Below are positions 23,740 to 36,223 of a stretch of DNA of 64,000 bases, piece by piece. The DNA is taken from assembly GCA_937891785.1 (NCBI GenBank), contig CALAGN010000040.1, positions 1 to 64,000 on the forward strand, given 5' to 3'. Positions within the stretch are counted from its first letter, which is position 1. Each line of letters starts with the position of its first letter. Source of the stretch: an uncultured Octadecabacter sp. (GTDB taxonomy: Bacteria > Pseudomonadota > Alphaproteobacteria > Rhodobacterales > Rhodobacteraceae). The notes beneath the pieces were generated by a model that worked only from the letters and a program-made list of their open reading frames with translations, was not told the origin of the DNA and searched no databases. A program made the position numbers and the translations under genes.

Positions 23740-24861
23740 CTACTGGCTGTTAGCGATAACATATCCGGCGATTCCTGCAACAATCAGTCCGATCACCACC
23801 GCAAATGCGATCTTCCATGCGGAATAAGGACGCTCACCCTGCACGCGGCCGGTGCGGCCGTTAACGACAAAGCGATAGGACTTGCCGCGGTATTTATAGG
23901 CGGCCATCCAGACGGGCAGCAGGATATGTTTGAACGTCACATCGCTGATATCGGTGTCGATTCCGTGGACGCGCTGGCGGTCGCCGCCGATGTCGAATTT
24001 CACATCACGCACGATCACACGATCCATATGTGCGCGGGCCTCGCCATATCCTTCGTCCAGTTCGACCTGATATCCTTCGGCGCGAAAACCGGCCAGAAAT
24101 TCCGGGCGGTAGGGTTCAAGCGCGGACAGATCCCAAGGCTCTAACCCGTCGGTGTATTTCTTGGGCAGGGATTTGGACGCCAGCACCAACACATCATCAA
24201 AGAACCGCGCGACACGCCCCGATTTGCTGTGCCAACGGGTTTTGCGCACACGGACCTGCTCGCGCTTGCCGTTTCGCGTCACGGTTCTGGTTTCGTAATA
24301 ATCTGTTCCACGCTCGCCGCTGTAGTGGCTTTTGGTATCCGCATCGAACGTCCAATAGGGCACATAGATCCCGTTCAATGCGCGCCCCTTGCGGGCATAT
24401 TGTTTGACACCATTGGGCGCGAACCAAAGGCTTCCCAGCCAGTTAGTCATGAACCCGCGCGCCTGGCTCTCATCCAGCGCAAACGGCAGCAGCCCTTTGG
24501 GTTTGATATGACGATGCAGACCTGTATCCGTGACGACCGGCGTTGCACAGAACGGGCACTCAGCGGCATGCGCTGTTTCGTCGATCTCGGTCTGGGCACC
24601 ACAATTTGGGCACTTCACGACGCGGGTTTCTTCGATTTCGGCGTTTGGCAGCTGATCGTTGAGGGCCGCGCGGAAATCCAGCTCGCGGATTGCCCCGCCT
24701 TGGTAGTCGCCCGCTTCCGTCGGTTGCGTGTTGCCGCAATGGTCGCAGATCAGGCGGTCCTCGCCAGGATCAAAGCGCAGGTCCGCGCCGCATTGATCAC
24801 ACGGAAAGCGGTGTTCCTGCACGGGTTCAGCCGTGTCATATGGCGAAGCGGTATTTGTCAT
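23740..24861 (-). CDS. Zinc-ribbon membrane-anchored protein (YdjG-like)
   Basis: A 373-aa protein with two double-Cys ribbons at the N-terminus: CDQCGADL plus CDHCGN (about residues 20-45) and CPNCGAQ plus CPFCATPV (about 84-107). A strand-rich central domain follows (YVPYWTFDADTKSHYSGERG, VFKHILLPVWMAAYKYRGK), and the protein ends in one transmembrane helix (IAFAVVIGLIVAGIAGYVI). Annotation pipelines often call homologues primosomal protein N' or helicase; no helicase motif is present. Bacillus YdjG, a zinc-ribbon partner of SPFH protein YdjI, is the nearest known analogue. AGGTCTTGAA precedes the start. Confidence 0.78.
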   Translation of the reverse strand: MTNTASPYDTAEPVQEHRFPCDQCGADLRFDPGEDRLICDHCGNTQPTEAGDYQGGAIRELDFRAALNDQLPNAEIEETRVVKCPNCGAQTEIDETAHAAECPFCATPVVTDTGLHRHIKPKGLLPFALDESQARGFMTNWLGSLWFAPNGVKQYARKGRALNGIYVPYWTFDADTKSHYSGERGTDYYETRTVTRNGKREQVRVRKTRWHSKSGRVARFFDDVLVLASKSLPKKYTDGLEPWDLSALEPYRPEFLAGFRAEGYQVELDEGYGEARAHMDRVIVRDVKFDIGGDRQRVHGIDTDISDVTFKHILLPVWMAAYKYRGKSYRFVVNGRTGRVQGERPYSAWKIAFAVVIGLIVAGIAGYVIANSQ

Positions 24862-24869
24862 TTCAAGAC

Positions 24870-25034
24870 CTATCTATCGACGATAATTTCCAGATCGCCA
24901 AAGCGTTGCATAAAAGCGGGATCAATCTGTTTTACCAGATATCACGACCAACCATCCCCGCCGACATGCCACCGTTTTCCGCGCAACCCCCACTGCACGC
25001 CGACCTGATCATAAAGCGCGTCGATCTGCGACAT
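24870..25034 (-). pseudogene. Small coupled ORF interrupted by in-frame TGA
   Basis: ATG at 25034 starts 3 nt after the SPFH gene's TAA and reads 30 codons (MSQIDALYDQVGVQWGLRGK... ending GGDGWS) to TGA at 24942-24944. The same frame continues for 23 codons (YLVKQIDPAFMQRFGDLEII...) to TAG at 24870-24872, 8 nt before the zinc-ribbon ATG. Spacing on both sides is that of an operon gene. The likeliest reading is a 54-residue gene with a Trp-to-stop mutation, making a pseudogene. Recoding or a sequencing error are alternatives. No family recognised. Confidence 0.55.
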
Positions 25035-25037
25035 GGC

Positions 25038-26144
25038 TTAGCCTGCGGGCGGTGGCGGTGGCATGACCGTAAAGAGCTGCGCCAGTTCCGCGACCTCGTC
25101 CGCGGTTTTCCATCCGTCTTGGCCAGCGGTCCAGACATGGGTGGTGCGTTTCACATCGCCCTTGGCGACCATCTGGCCGATTGTCGCGCGCGAGAACGGC
25201 CCTGTTGTCGCGCCACCTTCTGCGATGTGCCAGACGTGTTCGACGGGTGGGGGCGGTGGTGCCATCCGTGCGGCGGCGGCGGGGGCCGCGCCCCATGGTC
25301 CAGCCTGTGCCATTTGGCCAGCCATCGCCATGCCCATGCCAGCCCCAAGGCCGGCACCCATCGCGCCGGATGCTTCGCCACCCATACGCAGGGCTTCGGC
25401 GGCGGCGTATTTCATATGCGCATCCAGATCGCCGGTCAGCCCGCGCGACGTGCGGGTATCGAGCGCCTTTTCCACCGCAGGCGGCAGGCTGATGTTCTCG
25501 ATATACAGTTCAGGGATGGAGATACCGTAACCGGCAATCGTATCGGCAATCGCGCCCGCAATCAGCTTGCCCAGATCGGCGGTGTTTGCAGCCATATCCA
25601 GCACCGGAATGCCCGAGGCGGCGATCACGCGTGAAAACTCCTGCACGATGATGTTGCGCACCTGAAAGCTGATCTCGTCCATGGTGAATTCGCCGTCGGT
25701 CCCGACAATCTCGGTCAGGAACTTGGCGGGGTCACTCACGCGCACGGAATAGGTGCCAAATGCGCGAATGCGGGTCGGGCCAAACTCAGGGTCGCGCAGC
25801 ATAATCGGGTTTTTCGTGCCCCACTTCAGATCGTTGAACCGCGTCGTGTTGACGTAGTAAATTTCCGATTTGAACGGGCTTTTGAAACCATGATCCCAAT
25901 GTTGAAGCGTGGTCATGATCGGCATGTTGTTGGTTTCAAGCATATAAAGGCCGGGCGTGAACACATCGGCCAGCTGGCCTTCATGCACGAACACCGCCGC
26001 TTGCCCTTCGCGCACGGTTAGCTTGGCGCCATACTTGATCTCGTGGTCTTCACGCTCAAAGCGCCAAACCATCGTGTCACGCGTGTCGTCGGTCCAATGA
26101 ATGACGTCAATAAATTCGCCGGTTAGAAAATCGAGAATGCCCAT
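25038..26144 (-). CDS. SPFH-domain protein with C-terminal GYF_2 domain
   Basis: A 368-aa protein of the YdjI / virion-core-like SPFH group. Residues 1-~275 are the SPFH (band-7-like) part, with IKYGAKLTVREGQAAVFVHEGQLADVFTPG and FGTYSVRVSDPAKFL. A Gly/Ala/Met-rich linker follows, then a proline run (APPPPP). Residues ~310-360 form a GYF_2/DUF4339 domain (WHIAEGGATTGPFSRATIGQM...WTAGQDGWKTADEVAEL). There is no signal peptide, so it probably assembles on the inner face of the membrane. GGAAGGGAG precedes the start. Neighbours are TelA/XpaC upstream and a zinc-ribbon protein downstream. Confidence 0.85.
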   Translation of the reverse strand: MGILDFLTGEFIDVIHWTDDTRDTMVWRFEREDHEIKYGAKLTVREGQAAVFVHEGQLADVFTPGLYMLETNNMPIMTTLQHWDHGFKSPFKSEIYYVNTTRFNDLKWGTKNPIMLRDPEFGPTRIRAFGTYSVRVSDPAKFLTEIVGTDGEFTMDEISFQVRNIIVQEFSRVIAASGIPVLDMAANTADLGKLIAGAIADTIAGYGISIPELYIENISLPPAVEKALDTRTSRGLTGDLDAHMKYAAAEALRMGGEASGAMGAGLGAGMGMAMAGQMAQAGPWGAAPAAAARMAPPPPPVEHVWHIAEGGATTGPFSRATIGQMVAKGDVKRTTHVWTAGQDGWKTADEVAELAQLFTVMPPPPPAG

Positions 26145-26190
26145 GTGTGGCTCCCTTCCTTGGTTAAATCTGTTTGGCTGCTGGGTGCCA

Positions 26191-27183
26191 TCAACTCTCC
26201 CCTCCCACCAGCTCGCGCGCGATGACGCGGGCGATGGGCGCTGCTTGGGCGGCGGTCATGCGGTTGCGCATACGCGGATCATACAGCATTTTCAGCAGCA
26301 TTTCATCGTGTGTCGTGAGCAGGCCGAATTCTTCGTCGTCGTTAAAGATCGACGGGCGGGCCTGCGGGCTGTCGTTGGCCAAACCCAGACCTTGGGCGAT
26401 TTCTTCGTGGATGCACGCAATGCGCATCAGGTCGGGGTGTTCGCCGCGAATAAGGGCAACTGCGCGGGAATAACTGGCGTCGTTACCCTGGGAAAACGCG
26501 ACAACAAGGCAAAGGGTATCGCGCGGCAGTTCAAGGATCGCGCGCATGGTTGATGTGTTGATGTCGGGCACGATTGCGCGCAATTGCGCCTCGTATCCGC
26601 GCCTGTCGTCCTCATTCAGGATCAGCACATGGAAATTGGCATTCTCGCGGGCGGGTGTGATGCTAAGGCCGGTCAGACGCGCAAGCCGGTTGGCATAGCC
26701 GCGGACAGCGTTGGTGTCAGTGATGCGTTGATTGCTAGAAATGGTGTCGCCAAAAACGATATCCATGCGGATTGGGCGCTCCCAACGGCGAAGATTGCTA
26801 ATCGTCGGTTGGGCGCGAAAGCCGTCAGTTTCGGCGACGTATTCATCAAACAAAGCAATGCGCACGAAATTGCGCGCAAGTTGGGTGTCGGTAAAGGGCG
26901 TGTCTGGTCCGCCGCCATCAGTGCGAAGCAACCCCTGTCCCAAGAGGTCGTTTTGCAGACGCTGATAGTGAACTCGCAAGGCTGCGCTGTCTTGGCTGGC
27001 GGCATCCGGAAGGGTGATCGGGGTGGACATCGGTGGCAGTGGTTCGGTCAGCCCGCCAGGGCGCGAAGGGGGCACGGTGACCGGATCAGCGGACTGCAAA
27101 TCAATACAGGCCGTTAGTCCGGTCAGGGCTAAAAGCCCTAAACTGCGCAGGGCGAATCCTGCAATGTTTCCCGTGTTCCCCAA
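26191..27183 (-). CDS. DUF2927 lipoprotein, metalloprotease-like
   Basis: A 330-aa predicted lipoprotein: signal LRSLGLLALTGLTAC (Cys about residue 26), then a Pro-rich linker. The DUF2927 domain follows, with FVRIALFDEY, WERPIRMDIVF, and ACIHEEIAQGLGLANDSP. HEExxQxxGL resembles a zinc-protease helix, and a second His appears in TTHDEMLLKMLYDPRM. Proteolysis is inferred only. The TTG start at 27183 lies 4 nt after the telA stop with no clear Shine-Dalgarno site, so coupling to telA is likely and the exact start is uncertain. Confidence 0.78.
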   Translation of the reverse strand: MGNTGNIAGFALRSLGLLALTGLTACIDLQSADPVTVPPSRPGGLTEPLPPMSTPITLPDAASQDSAALRVHYQRLQNDLLGQGLLRTDGGGPDTPFTDTQLARNFVRIALFDEYVAETDGFRAQPTISNLRRWERPIRMDIVFGDTISSNQRITDTNAVRGYANRLARLTGLSITPARENANFHVLILNEDDRRGYEAQLRAIVPDINTSTMRAILELPRDTLCLVVAFSQGNDASYSRAVALIRGEHPDLMRIACIHEEIAQGLGLANDSPQARPSIFNDDEEFGLLTTHDEMLLKMLYDPRMRNRMTAAQAAPIARVIARELVGGES

Positions 27184-27187
27184 TCGT

Positions 27188-28390
27188 TTAAACCGCGCCG
27201 GCGGCTGTGCCGATGTTGTGGCCGGTGCCTGTGTCGCGCGCCTTAGCAGCAGATAGCGTCGCCTTAAGCTCGGCTTCCATTGCCTTAAGCTCGACTTCGG
27301 CTTTGGCCCGCTTGCGCTTGCCTTCGTCCGCGATCTGCAAGCTTTCTTCGATGGTGCCGATCAGGTCTGCGTTGGCCTTTTTGATCGCTTCGATATCGAA
27401 CACGCCGCGTTCCATTTCGGTGCGGATCATCTTGTTGGCGCTGCGCAGGTTTTCGGCGTTTGCAGTCAACAACTCGTTCGTCAGATCGTTGGCGTCACGT
27501 ACGGCCACGGCGGCTTCGGCGCTGCGCTGGATCGTGACCGCCTGCGCCAGCTGTGTTTCCCACAGCGGCACGGTGTTGATCAGCGTCGAGTTGATCTTGG
27601 TCACCAGTGACTTGTCGTTTTCCTGCACCAGCCGGATTGACGGCAGCGACTGCATCGTCACCTGACGGGTCAGTTTCAGATCGTGAACACGGCGTTCCAG
27701 ATCGTCTCGCGCAGCGCGCAAGTCGCGCAATTCCTGCGCTTTCATGACACCTTGATCTTCGGGGGCGGCTTCGACTTCGGCGACCTTGCTGGGGATGGTT
27801 TTGTCGTCGAGTTCCTTCAGCTTTGCTTCGCCAGCGGCGATGTAAAGCGCAAGCTCGTCATAAAACGCCAGCGTCTTGTCATAAAGCACATCAAGGCTTT
27901 CGATGTCTTTGAGCAGCACATGTTCGTGGCGCAAAAGATCATCAGTGACCTTGTCGATCTGGCCTTGCACGGTTTCGAATCGCGCGGCGAATTTCGCAGC
28001 CGGTGCGGCGCGGCCCAGCAGTTTTTCCCACCACGACCGTTTGCGACGCACATCCAGTTCGGACACGTTAAACCCGCGGATTGTTGTCACGATCTCGCGC
28101 AGGCTGTCACCGGCGGGGCCGACGTCTTTGTTGCGCACGCCTTGCAGCATAGACTGGCTAATCACCTGCAATTCCGCCTGTGCGGATGAGCCAAAGGAAA
28201 TGATCGAATTGGTGTCTTCCATGTCCAGTTCGGCCATGCGTTTGGTAATGGCAGTCGTGGTCTTTTTGTTTGCGCCTTCCAGCGTCACCAGCTCACCTTT
28301 TGGTTCGGCCAGCACAACAGCGGTGACTTTTTCAACTTCGGCCAGCGAGGCTTGTGCCTTTTGCATATTGTTCACAACGGTATCAGACAT
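27188..28390 (-). CDS. telA: TelA/YaaN family toxic anion resistance protein
   Basis: A 400-aa soluble, almost wholly helical protein of the TelA (KlaA/YaaN) family, associated with tellurite and other toxic-anion resistance. Characteristic segments: GVRNKDVGPAGDSLREIVTTIRGFNV, WWEKLLGRA, VHDLKLTRQVTMQSLPSIRLVQENDKSL and NTVPLWETQLAQAVTIQRSAEA. Long coiled-coil stretches cover the centre. It follows the XpaC-like gene by 21 nt, the same pairing as Bacillus yaaN-xpaC. AAGGGAC precedes ATG 28390. Confidence 0.92.
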   Translation of the reverse strand: MSDTVVNNMQKAQASLAEVEKVTAVVLAEPKGELVTLEGANKKTTTAITKRMAELDMEDTNSIISFGSSAQAELQVISQSMLQGVRNKDVGPAGDSLREIVTTIRGFNVSELDVRRKRSWWEKLLGRAAPAAKFAARFETVQGQIDKVTDDLLRHEHVLLKDIESLDVLYDKTLAFYDELALYIAAGEAKLKELDDKTIPSKVAEVEAAPEDQGVMKAQELRDLRAARDDLERRVHDLKLTRQVTMQSLPSIRLVQENDKSLVTKINSTLINTVPLWETQLAQAVTIQRSAEAAVAVRDANDLTNELLTANAENLRSANKMIRTEMERGVFDIEAIKKANADLIGTIEESLQIADEGKRKRAKAEVELKAMEAELKATLSAAKARDTGTGHNIGTAAGAV

Positions 28391-28411
28391 AATGTCCCTT
28401 TCTAGTGGGGC

Positions 28412-29293
28412 CTAAAGGCCTTCGCGCTGCAAACGATCGCGCAGCACTTTGATTTCAATGTCCATGTCACTGCGGTCGTCCAGCAACAGCTTTTCTGTTC
28501 TTGCGGCAAAATTCTGCTCAAGATCGCCGAGCAGGACTTCGTAATCCGCGCGCGCATCTGCGTCGTGATTGCGCTGGTAAAAATCCACAAATTTGACCGA
28601 CGCGTCGCGTGCCCCCATCAGATAGACGCCCAAGAATTTGCGGGCACCCGTCAGATCGCGCGGGTCTTCTTCGACGGTGCGGATCATGCGACGGGCGGCG
28701 GATTGAAACGCGGCGACGCGCAAATCAAGTGGGCGATCCTTGAGCGTGGCGATATGATCGGCCATGGCGCGCAAATGCGCCTCGGCCTCGTCGACGACGC
28801 GGGCCACGCGATCTTGCTGAAAGGTGTCGATGCCCTCCATGCGTTTGTCGCGCAACGGATCAATACCAAAAGCCGCCACATGCAGCGCGCCGGCAATGAC
28901 GGCATAAAGCATGCCGGCAATCACGCTTGGGTCAGTCGCATAGCTGGCAAGCCCAGCGCCGAGCCCCGTCACAACGGCTGCCAAGGCTTTGCGCGGCAGG
29001 GCAGGGCGGCGCGCAACCTTGCGGGCATCATAAGCCGCCGTGGCACGTAACCCATCGCGCAGCAGCCAGGCACCCAAAGTCAGCAATCCTGCTGCAACCA
29101 GCCCCATCGCAAGGCCAGCGGCCCCCTCGTTCAAAGAGGTAAAGACCAGAATGACAGGGGGCACGAACAACAGGTTTGCACGCGCGCCAGCCGCATCGAC
29201 TTTGCGTTCGTCAATCATTTCGGGCAACTGTGCACCGCGTTTATCGGGCCCGCGCCCATCCGGGCTATGTGCCCCGCCAAATCGTTTTGCCAT
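28412..29293 (-). CDS. XpaC-like (5-bromo-4-chloroindolyl phosphate hydrolysis) protein
   Basis: A 293-aa XpaC-family membrane protein. Two hydrophobic hairpins lie near residues 37-82 (LLFVPPVILVFTSLN; GLAMGLVAAGLLTLGAWLL) and 100-145 (AAVVTGLGAGLASYA; MLYAVIAGALHVAAF). They are followed by a helical cytoplasmic domain (RMIRTVEEDPRDLTGARKFL, LGVYLMGARDASVKF) matching the XpaC conserved part. Despite the name, phosphatase activity is not evident. It partners with TelA by position and is translationally coupled to a 25-residue membrane peptide (3 nt gap). Confidence 0.85.
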   Translation of the reverse strand: MAKRFGGAHSPDGRGPDKRGAQLPEMIDERKVDAAGARANLLFVPPVILVFTSLNEGAAGLAMGLVAAGLLTLGAWLLRDGLRATAAYDARKVARRPALPRKALAAVVTGLGAGLASYATDPSVIAGMLYAVIAGALHVAAFGIDPLRDKRMEGIDTFQQDRVARVVDEAEAHLRAMADHIATLKDRPLDLRVAAFQSAARRMIRTVEEDPRDLTGARKFLGVYLMGARDASVKFVDFYQRNHDADARADYEVLLGDLEQNFAARTEKLLLDDRSDMDIEIKVLRDRLQREGL

Positions 29294-29296
29294 GCC

Positions 29297-29374
29297 CTAA
29301 AGCCCCGCGATCCAGCCGGTCGATATCCCGACAAGCAGCAGGAAAAGTGCGCCATATGCTACGTTTTTGATCAT
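29297..29374 (-). CDS. 25-residue transmembrane micro-protein
   Basis: ATG 29374 is preceded by AGGAG at 8 nt and opens a 25-codon frame (MIKNVAYGALFLLL ... STGWIAGL) ending in TAG, 3 nt before the xpaC-like ATG. It has a Lys at the N-side, then an almost continuous hydrophobic helix, so it is a single-pass membrane peptide. Strong ribosome site, tight spacing and clear hydrophobicity support it as a real gene too short for routine calling. Role unknown; a leader or small subunit for the XpaC-TelA module is possible. Confidence 0.65.
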   Translation of the reverse strand: MIKNVAYGALFLLLVGISTGWIAGL

Positions 29375-29429
29375 GATTACGCTCCTGATCGCAAGTTTAC
29401 GCCCCTAAGATAGTCTGCGCCAAGCATGT

Positions 29430-30275
29430 TTACGAGTGCTCTTGCAATGCGGTGCGTTCCGCGTTGAGTTTGCGGCTATAACCGGATTGCAGCACTTCGA
29501 CGGCAACCAGCACGAGCACCGAGAAGTAGAACGTCGATTTCGACATCGGCACGATTTCCTGACCAAAGACCCTTAGCGCCTGCAACTTGGCCTCGTCATG
29601 GGGCATGCCCATCGCCTCAAGGCCATGCACAGCGGCCTGACCGGATTCACCCAACAAGACGACACCGACGATCAGCAGGATAAACAGGCCCAAAACTTCA
29701 TACATGCGGTTCTTTTGCAGAAATCTGGTCACCCCGTCGGCCAGCAACAGCATAGCCAGCCCGCTGAGGATGATCGCGATCGCAAGGATCGGAAAAACAT
29801 CCGTAATGGCGATCGCCGACAGCACAGAATCAAACGAGAAGATCAGGTTCATCATCACAATCAAAACGACGACCTGCGTGGCGGATTTCGAGGACTTCCC
29901 ATCGACATCGTGATCAAGACGATCAATCGACAGCATATGGCCGATTTCTTTGACGGCCGTATACATGATGAATGCGCCGCCAACGATGAACACGCAGGTG
30001 GCAAAGTTCACGCTGCCCTCGATCACACCGACCCAAGTGAATTCATAGAACGGGGCGTTCAAGGCATTCAGCAATTGGATGATCACAAACAGCAGCACGA
30101 CCCGCAGGGCGACGGCGATGATGATACCCCATGTGCGCACGGCTTTTTGCTGCGCGACAGGCGCACGCTGGCTTTCGATCGAGATATAAAGCAGGTTGTC
30201 GAACCCCAGAACCGCCTGCAAAAAGCAAAGCATCAGCAGGTTGGTCGCGTTTTCAAATGTCACAAGGTCGGCCAT
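29430..30275 (-). CDS. TerC family integral membrane protein
   Basis: A 281-aa TerC-family protein with about seven hydrophobic helices and the two signature half-repeats with Asp in the membrane: LQAVLGFDNLLYISIES near residue 15 and MNLIFSFDSVLSAIAITDVF near 140. TerC proteins are implicated in metal-ion (manganese) efflux and tellurite resistance. ATG 30275 follows GGGGAT; extension upstream is unlikely. It heads the Ter/TelA/XpaC run, 60 nt after rluB and 55 nt before the micro-protein. Confidence 0.92.
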   Translation of the reverse strand: MADLVTFENATNLLMLCFLQAVLGFDNLLYISIESQRAPVAQQKAVRTWGIIIAVALRVVLLFVIIQLLNALNAPFYEFTWVGVIEGSVNFATCVFIVGGAFIMYTAVKEIGHMLSIDRLDHDVDGKSSKSATQVVVLIVMMNLIFSFDSVLSAIAITDVFPILAIAIILSGLAMLLLADGVTRFLQKNRMYEVLGLFILLIVGVVLLGESGQAAVHGLEAMGMPHDEAKLQALRVFGQEIVPMSKSTFYFSVLVLVAVEVLQSGYSRKLNAERTALQEHS

Positions 30276-35815: not shown

Positions 35816-36220
35816 GCGCGGATGGCTGGGTGATCGCGGGTGGTAACATCCGAGGAAAGTCCGGACTCCACAAGGCATGGTGCCGGGTAACTCCCGGCGG
35901 GGGAAACCCTAGGGATAGCGCCACAGAAAACAGACCGCCTGTGTCCGCACAGGTCAGGGTGAAACGGTGGGGTAAGAGCCCACCGCGCGAGTGGTAACAC
36001 AAGCGGCACGGCAAGCCCCACCAGGAGCAATGCCAAATAGGGGCCCCGCGCGGGCAGGTGCCGCAAGGCATACCGCCGCAAGGATGCCTGAACCCAAGGG
36101 GCCCGGGTTGGCAGCTAGAGGGCGGTTGGTAACAGCCGCTTTAGATGAATGATCGCCCACGGTGGCGCCGCCTTCGGGCAGCGCCACCGGGACAAAATCC
36201 GGCTTATAGGCCGTCCGCGC
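35816..36220 (+). ncRNA. rnpB: RNase P RNA
   Basis: The bacterial class A RNase P RNA, catalytic part of tRNA 5' maturation. The conserved core GAGGAAAGTCCGGACTCC begins at 35852, with GGGGAAACCCTAGGGATAG and ACAGAAAACAGACCGCC following. The ends pair as helix P1: 35816-35826 (GCGCGGATGGC) with 36210-36220 (GCCGTCCGCGC). It begins 10 nt after the amidase stop, and its 3' end lies 3 nt from the convergent ppsA stop. Confidence 0.96.
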
Positions 36221-36223
36221 AAC

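Follow-up and report, generated by a model that had tools for sequence, protein, structure and literature searches.

A conserved XpaC-TelA-SPFH-zinc-ribbon gene run in Rhodobacteraceae as a candidate PspA-independent membrane-maintenance unit

A run of genes encoding TerC-family, XpaC-type, TelA, DUF2927, SPFH/GYF and zinc-ribbon proteins lies within a 64,000-nt stretch of DNA (hereafter the window; contig CALAGN010000040.1, here C40) from the 3.3 Mb genome of an uncultured Octadecabacter sp. The host is a member of Rhodobacteraceae, and all genomes and loci referred to below as family genomes or family loci are from Rhodobacteraceae. The run lies entirely on the minus strand, and all six protein identities proposed in the initial annotation were found there, five by Pfam matches and the zinc-ribbon protein by its eight invariant cysteines. 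In order, the features are:

29430..30275, minus strand: TerC-family membrane protein, 281 aa (PF03741, E 4e-37), with seven hydrophobic segments; accessory to the run
29297..29374, minus strand: predicted transmembrane micropeptide, 25 aa, MIKNVAYGALFLLLVGISTGWIAGL, 3 nt ahead of xpaC and with AGGAG upstream
28412..29293, minus strand: XpaC-type membrane protein, 293 aa (PF10112, E 3e-25), with two hydrophobic segments in the window copy
27188..28390, minus strand: TelA, 400 aa (PF05816, E 4e-108), single copy in the genome
26191..27183, minus strand: DUF2927 lipoprotein, 330 aa (PF11150, E 4e-60), with a matrixin-like predicted fold and a substituted zinc site
25038..26144, minus strand: SPFH/GYF protein with a proline tail, 368 aa (Band_7_1 PF13421, E 2e-101; GYF_2 PF14237, E 3e-18)
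24862..25037, minus strand: probable remnant of a 107-aa gene without a Pfam or NCBIfam family, with an intact counterpart in the same-genus locus L032
23740..24861, minus strand: double zinc-ribbon protein with a C-terminal membrane anchor, 373 aa, with eight invariant cysteines

From TerC through the zinc-ribbon gene, the successive gaps are 55, 3, 21, 4, 46 and 176 nt. The run had been described as seven minus-strand genes separated by 3-55 nt, which holds for every gap except that between the SPFH and zinc-ribbon genes, and the seventh gene of that description must be the 25-residue open reading frame (ORF) at 29374..29297, which proves to be real. The 176-nt gap appears to retain both ends of a gene that is intact at L032:11968-12291, with the 5' end matched by eye and the 3' block by alignment; the 107-aa protein of L032 has no family in Pfam or NCBIfam. 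At the same position, between the SPFH and zinc-ribbon genes, an extra membrane protein that is cytochrome b561-like by eye is encoded in L033, L035, L048, L065, L081 and L098.

TelA is present in 133 of the 149 family genomes sampled (132 of 148 genera), as a single copy in nearly all of those that have it. The window TelA is up to 90% identical to Octadecabacter records, and its named relatives are from Rhodobacteraceae or Rhodobacterales. The surroundings of TelA were compared across 100 family loci, one per genus or nearly so, with neighbours counted on the same strand within 8.5 kb. XpaC is found in 98 of these loci, DUF2927 in 94, SPFH in 94 and the zinc-ribbon protein in 92, in a fixed order. 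Among 80 named loci, XpaC is found in 79 (with the flank available in about 79), DUF2927 in 78 (about 78), SPFH in 72 (about 73), the zinc-ribbon protein in 69 (about 71) and TerC in 27 (about 78). The common gene order is far beyond chance. That the genes should be neighbours in relatives had been set beforehand as a test of the run, and the order shared by the 100 family loci and the 80 named loci bears it out; of the six families expected to co-occur, XpaC, TelA, DUF2927, SPFH and the zinc-ribbon protein do so (92-98 of 100), while TerC, in 20 of 100, does not.

TelA and the YdjI-type SPFH protein are kept or lost jointly: across the 149 family genomes, TelA and a strong SPFH match are both present in 131, both absent from 15 and discordant in three (131/2/1/15; Fisher p 1.5e-17, uncorrected for relatedness). 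Two of the discordant genomes have the gene that is present at a contig end, and the third has an SPFH fragment at a contig end. In the window, a PfkB kinase gene lies 15 nt past the zinc-ribbon gene, followed by an ORF named DTD by eye; among the 100 family loci, rsuA neighbours TelA in 84, DTD in 63 and PfkB in 54. In L075, L096, L103 and L120, rsuA is distant and inverted, yet the core genes are together (in L075 without DUF2927). The large pFER4 replicon of Paracoccus ferrooxidans (L284) carries genes for TelA, DUF2927, SPFH, the zinc-ribbon protein and a carbohydrate kinase, with unlike flanks.

In a class sample of 190 genomes, TelA was found in 19, over the cut-off in 17, and three of the 19 are within the family. 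Among 34 outside-family stretches, L135, L136, L137 and L139, which represent four families, carry XpaC-TelA-SPFH-zinc ribbon, and DUF2927, rsuA, PfkB and DTD were not found in these four. Because four outside families keep these genes without DUF2927, the core is taken to be the four-gene set XpaC-TelA-SPFH-zinc ribbon, and DUF2927 was rejected as a core member. Outside the family, DUF2927 does not lie beside TelA in the class sample, the near miss being L146 (genome G260), where DUF2927 is 5.4 kb from a weak TelA match and on the opposite strand. L166, a locus from a different class, encodes XpaC-TelA and then a short protein that matches GYF_2 (E 9e-10) and, weakly, Band_7_1 (E 0.0027), and the remaining outside-family stretches have XpaC on the far side, XpaC only or no partner. 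A different TelA arrangement occurs at L134:6835-10870 and L145:6717-10289, with TelA, a lipoprotein-like protein of about 525 aa and XpaC.

The 190 class genomes contain nine strong YdjI-type SPFH genes, seven of which, by hand count, lie next to TelA (three within the family); the two away from TelA are in genome G296, as an SPFH-zinc-ribbon pair, and in genome G160, where a weak zinc-ribbon match adjoins SPFH. In a 33-row TelA tree, every SPFH-linked row falls inside one 100/100 branch, to which the unlinked rows L131, L138 (on a contig of 3 kb) and L140 also belong. The initial annotation had viewed the run as a merger of two modules, XpaC-TelA and SPFH-zinc ribbon, and this view is supported: the modules are joined in many Alphaproteobacteria and occur separately elsewhere. 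In a B. subtilis record, neither an SPFH nor a zinc-ribbon protein is annotated near csfB-xpaC-yaaN, and SPFH-zinc-ribbon pairs without TelA alongside are present in Vibrio coralliilyticus, on Comamonas replicons and in G296. Near the Jeotgalibacillus TelA, XpaC and SPFH were neither annotated nor detected.

The link between SPFH and TelA extends to a bacteriophage. In the Sinorhizobium jumbo phage Phosso (PV764938, L287:858-5038), YqiJ, flotillin, XpaC and TelA are encoded in a row, and the SPFH protein carries the Flot domain; the phage SPFH-XpaC-TelA set, with its different SPFH class, provides independent support for the link. In Staphylococcus phage SA1, a Band_7 protein lies about 3 kb from TelA. 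TelA homologues also occur in Prevotella Lak phages (540-552 kb), an uncultured 636-kb phage, Staphylococcus jumbo phages (259-274 kb) and Lactobacillus phage LpeD (145 kb); many other records in the phage TelA listing are short fragments.

A hydrophobic-tailed ORF, the micropeptide, ends no more than 24 nt from the xpaC start in 95 of the 98 family loci and, with that start placed by tblastn, in 77 of the 79 named loci. The same ORF test upstream of TelA, DUF2927, SPFH and the zinc-ribbon gene gave 1 of 99, 0 of 93, 0 of 94 and 0 of 92, respectively. The last 24 codons are stop-free in frame in all 95 family sequences, and the ratio of nonsynonymous to synonymous variation (pN/pS), from sequences aligned from the stop without gaps, is 0.46 (0.43 over 39 disjoint pairs) versus 0.62-1.92 in the five other frames. 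When the 95 family sequences, the 77 named ones and the window copy are taken together (173), 166 have a start codon 24-33 codons before the stop, a length range that reflects the interval in which starts were sought. The micropeptide is about 25-30 residues long and under coding selection. Searches with four variants in Pfam and with six in NCBIfam did not yield a convincing family. Outside the family, a possible micropeptide is present in L136 and L166, and most other stretches have none.

The window TelA is full-length for PF05816, with 361.8 bits (cut-off 30) over positions 4-331 of 332, and its predicted structure is all-helical with a long hairpin (130-208/211-327). Sequence search found no solved relatives of TelA. 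An ESCRT-III/PspA-like identity and kinship with alpha-pore-forming toxins were both considered for TelA; the ClyA-type matches, at a Z of about 12, fall below the level that counts for helical bundles and are no evidence of kinship. A hydrophobic segment is missing from the SPFH protein in all 94 sequences, and 91 of the 94 have PPPP within the last 20 residues; with its PF13421 match, the window copy belongs with the soluble YdjI-type SPFH proteins. It shows only Band_7_1, Band_7 and GYF_2 at E <=0.1, and the flotillin C-terminal domain (PF15975, Flot) is absent; the only solved structure that it matched by sequence is a gliding motility protein's GYF domain (E 0.00095). Cysteines C21, C24, C39, C42, C84, C87, C102 and C105 of the zinc-ribbon protein are invariant in 93 sequences, and in 90 of 92 its C-terminus is formed by a hydrophobic segment; the family matches of the window copy are all below model cut-offs. 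The C-terminal segment of one protein and the lack of any segment in the other fit the roles of zinc-ribbon anchor and SPFH scaffold that had been suggested for them.

The lipobox cysteine of the DUF2927 protein (Cys26), along with C225 and C257, is invariant in 94 sequences. The HExxQ motif of its initial description was not upheld: the window copy reads HEEIAQ at this site, where conservation follows the register EExxQ. The fuller motif EExxQxxGxxND is present in 92 of 93 family and 77 of 78 named operon proteins, and 14 aligned sequences have the residues E, E, Q, G, N and D invariant and the preceding H variable. Among 12 distant or paralogous DUF2927 proteins, 10 have the motif, another has DD in place of ND and the last (L261) is without it; none has HExxH.

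An AlphaFold model from 63 sequences (predicted local distance difference test, pLDDT, 91.2; predicted template modelling score, pTM, 0.85) was compared with solved structures. Foldseek placed matrix metalloproteinases (MMPs) best (E 4e-4; two rows below 0.001), and VIA-align gave MMP-7 a Z of 11.8 with a root-mean-square deviation of 2.7 over 147 aligned residues, with matrixins in all 50 rows listed. The zinc site HExxHxxGxxH is missing, as HExxH is present in 0 of 93 family and 0 of 78 named operon proteins. By hhalign, a close-set DUF2927 profile against bacterial matrixins gave E 0.3 and was misaligned, and a broader alignment reached E 0.083, placing the motif on HExGHxxGLxH and showing an 'L..D....LY' end in common. 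Sequence search found no solved relatives, and no literature on DUF2927 was found among the open-licence papers searched. We read DUF2927 as a family that probably has the matrixin fold but whose metal site is substituted, the zinc histidines being replaced; it is probably an inactive pseudo-protease. Two further DUF2927 settings were observed. On contig C12 of the same genome (L252:4103-8059), a further DUF2927 protein, which has a long extension at its C-terminus, is flanked by a VWA_CoxE protein and an AAA ATPase that is MoxR-like by eye, and L261 (genome G307) has several clustered DUF2927 genes, including the one without the EExxQ motif.

TerC had been included in the gene run as one of its members, a placement that does not stand: it lies upstream of xpaC on the same strand in the 20 family loci counted above and in the 27 named loci, and was rejected as a core member. 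TerC of the kind in the window occurs in 29 family genomes and is beside TelA in 25 of them, in a hand count of frames of at least 270 aa with E from 1e-38 to 4e-34 that excluded a 213-aa match in G059 and a weaker match in G054. No papers treating TelA, XpaC and TerC together were found among the open-licence literature searched, and a Ruegeria proteogenomics paper (PMC3305630) contained none of the terms sought.

At the run itself, no clear excess of promoters or terminators was found, and the leader fold (z -1.7) gave nothing usable. No riboswitch was found in the window at the Rfam gathering threshold, where the sole match is a bacterial RNase P class A RNA at 35818-36222 (plus strand).

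The locus is tentatively interpreted as one membrane-maintenance unit with XpaC, TelA, the SPFH/GYF protein and the zinc-ribbon protein as its core, with a probability of roughly 0.4. The unit and the parts of the locus are well supported, and the best reading is that the locus is a PspA-independent relative of Bacillus pspA-ydjGHI, with XpaC-TelA in the place of PspA. PspA (PF04012) has no match in the Octadecabacter genome (G000), so that no copy is hidden elsewhere in it, and is over the cut-off in 25 of the 149 family genomes; because PspA is lacking here and rare in the family, TelA-XpaC may occupy the position of PspA. The B. subtilis SPFH protein YdjI, itself probably soluble, depends on YdjG/H for its location at the membrane and for PspA placement (PMC8581546).

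In such a unit, the zinc-ribbon protein would recruit the soluble SPFH/GYF protein to the inner membrane, where the latter would form a scaffold, perhaps linked by its GYF domain and proline tail. XpaC and the micropeptide would hold the long helical TelA at the membrane, and TelA would be the effector that stabilises the stressed membrane, in the position held by PspA beside YdjG/H/I in Bacillus. The DUF2927 lipoprotein may have been added in Rhodobacteraceae as a periplasmic part for binding or sensing, and TerC, where present, may add manganese export or metal loading. The function of the TelA family elsewhere is envelope-related, as seen in a Listeria TelA-family mutant that is 4-fold more sensitive to nisin and also more sensitive to tellurite (PMC12791056). 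The same source reports that poly-L-lysine induces the B. subtilis TelA homologue, and the sole expression record found is of Paracoccus TelA in an early plastic biofilm proteome (PMC11962581).

Several observations weigh against this interpretation. PspA is not anticorrelated with TelA, being present in three of 15 genomes without TelA and SPFH and 22 of 133 with TelA. The TelA model is weak (pLDDT 71.9, pTM 0.54), its best fold matches are of the ClyA/AhlB type at a Z of about 12, which is under the meaningful level for long helices, and PspA/Vipp1 is not among the displayed matches, leaving similarity to PspA unsupported. XpaC is lacking in two of the 100 family loci and was not detected on the Paracoccus replicon stretch, and, among the proteins scanned, SPFH was found near TelA in only two of eight phage stretches, one stretch (L295) being searched with our own models only. 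Flanking genes with no evident relation to the run (rsuA, DTD and PfkB) are often conserved as well.

A more ambitious proposal, which we consider doubtful, is that XpaC and TelA act on SPFH scaffolds as a pair of membrane-repair effectors in place of PspA, that in the family they would form a transmembrane machine with a micropeptide head and a pseudo-matrixin periplasmic sensor, and that large phages took SPFH-XpaC-TelA sets to manage host membranes. TelA and XpaC are widespread under a name derived from tellurite, with no known mechanism (PMC12791056). The near-universal family operon ties them to an SPFH scaffold and to a testable role in membrane protection, and would provide a genetic system for TelA/XpaC outside Firmicutes. 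The analysis further proposes a fold for DUF2927, that of an inactive-looking matrixin, and draws attention to a micropeptide without a Pfam or NCBIfam model.

It is unlikely that the locus is instead a toxic-oxyanion or metal module, in which TelA, TerC and the zinc-ribbon protein counter tellurite or metal imbalance and SPFH merely organises them. R. sphaeroides telA is listed in a review among tellurite resistance loci (PMC6955997), and is probably an orthologue because nearly all family genomes with TelA carry just one copy, an assignment drawn from copy number and not from sequence comparison. TerC proteins are active in Mn efflux and supply exported enzymes with metal (PMC10550928), and the window kind of TerC is found beside TelA in most of the genomes that possess it. 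However, TerC was not found adjoining xpaC in 80 of the 100 loci, no core Pfam match indicates a transporter or reductase, and envelope damage could also cause tellurite sensitivity.

The copurification of B. subtilis TerC proteins with SecY, SecDF, FtsH and the flotillins FloA/FloT (PMC10550928) would suit a secretion or membrane-protein quality module, in which a translocation or protease complex would be grouped by the SPFH scaffold, with DUF2927 binding exported peptides and TerC loading metal. The protease-like predicted fold and conserved site of DUF2927, a predicted lipoprotein, also favour such a module, but neither DUF2927 nor TerC is core, and this explanation is considered improbable.

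Conserved order without joint function, with two old gene pairs at a stable chromosomal site, would account for the frequent retention of the unrelated neighbours rsuA, DTD and PfkB. This has only a slim chance of being correct, as the core is together in four other families without these neighbours, is kept where rsuA is distant and inverted, occurs minus XpaC on the Paracoccus replicon between unlike flanks, and has TelA and SPFH lost jointly. A barrier against membrane-attacking peptides or phages is the least probable explanation, since PADLOC matched 0 of 6 proteins at E <=0.01 and the locus is in nearly all family genomes whereas defence systems are patchy, despite the nisin sensitivity of the Listeria mutant and the carriage of TelA by several large phages.

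The proposed membrane-maintenance unit may be compared with known systems part by part. DUF2927 resembles matrixins (MMPs, peptidase family M10) in its predicted fold and, by motif alignment, in a Glu at the catalytic position, but has EExxQxxGxxND instead of HExxH in nearly every operon member, with HExxH absent from every member viewed. Phage Phosso, like the family locus, encodes an SPFH protein directly ahead of XpaC-TelA, but that protein is of the flotillin class and accompanied by YqiJ, and no zinc-ribbon homologue was found in its stretch. The Vibrio and Comamonas pairs consist of an SPFH protein of the same class, carrying GYF_2 in Vibrio, and a zinc-ribbon homologue after it, but have no XpaC-TelA in their stretches, and the Comamonas SPFH protein has HTH_17 and no GYF_2. 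Bacillus/Listeria xpaC-yaaN (telA) shares with the locus an XpaC directly upstream of TelA, as seen in the B. subtilis record, but has no SPFH or zinc-ribbon protein annotated beside it. In B. subtilis pspA-ydjGHI, the place taken in the locus by XpaC-TelA, DUF2927 and the micropeptide is held by PspA. Band_7_1 also matches in the B. subtilis control genome, and in pspA-ydjGHI, as in the locus described here, an SPFH protein without a membrane segment is encoded beside a putative membrane anchor.

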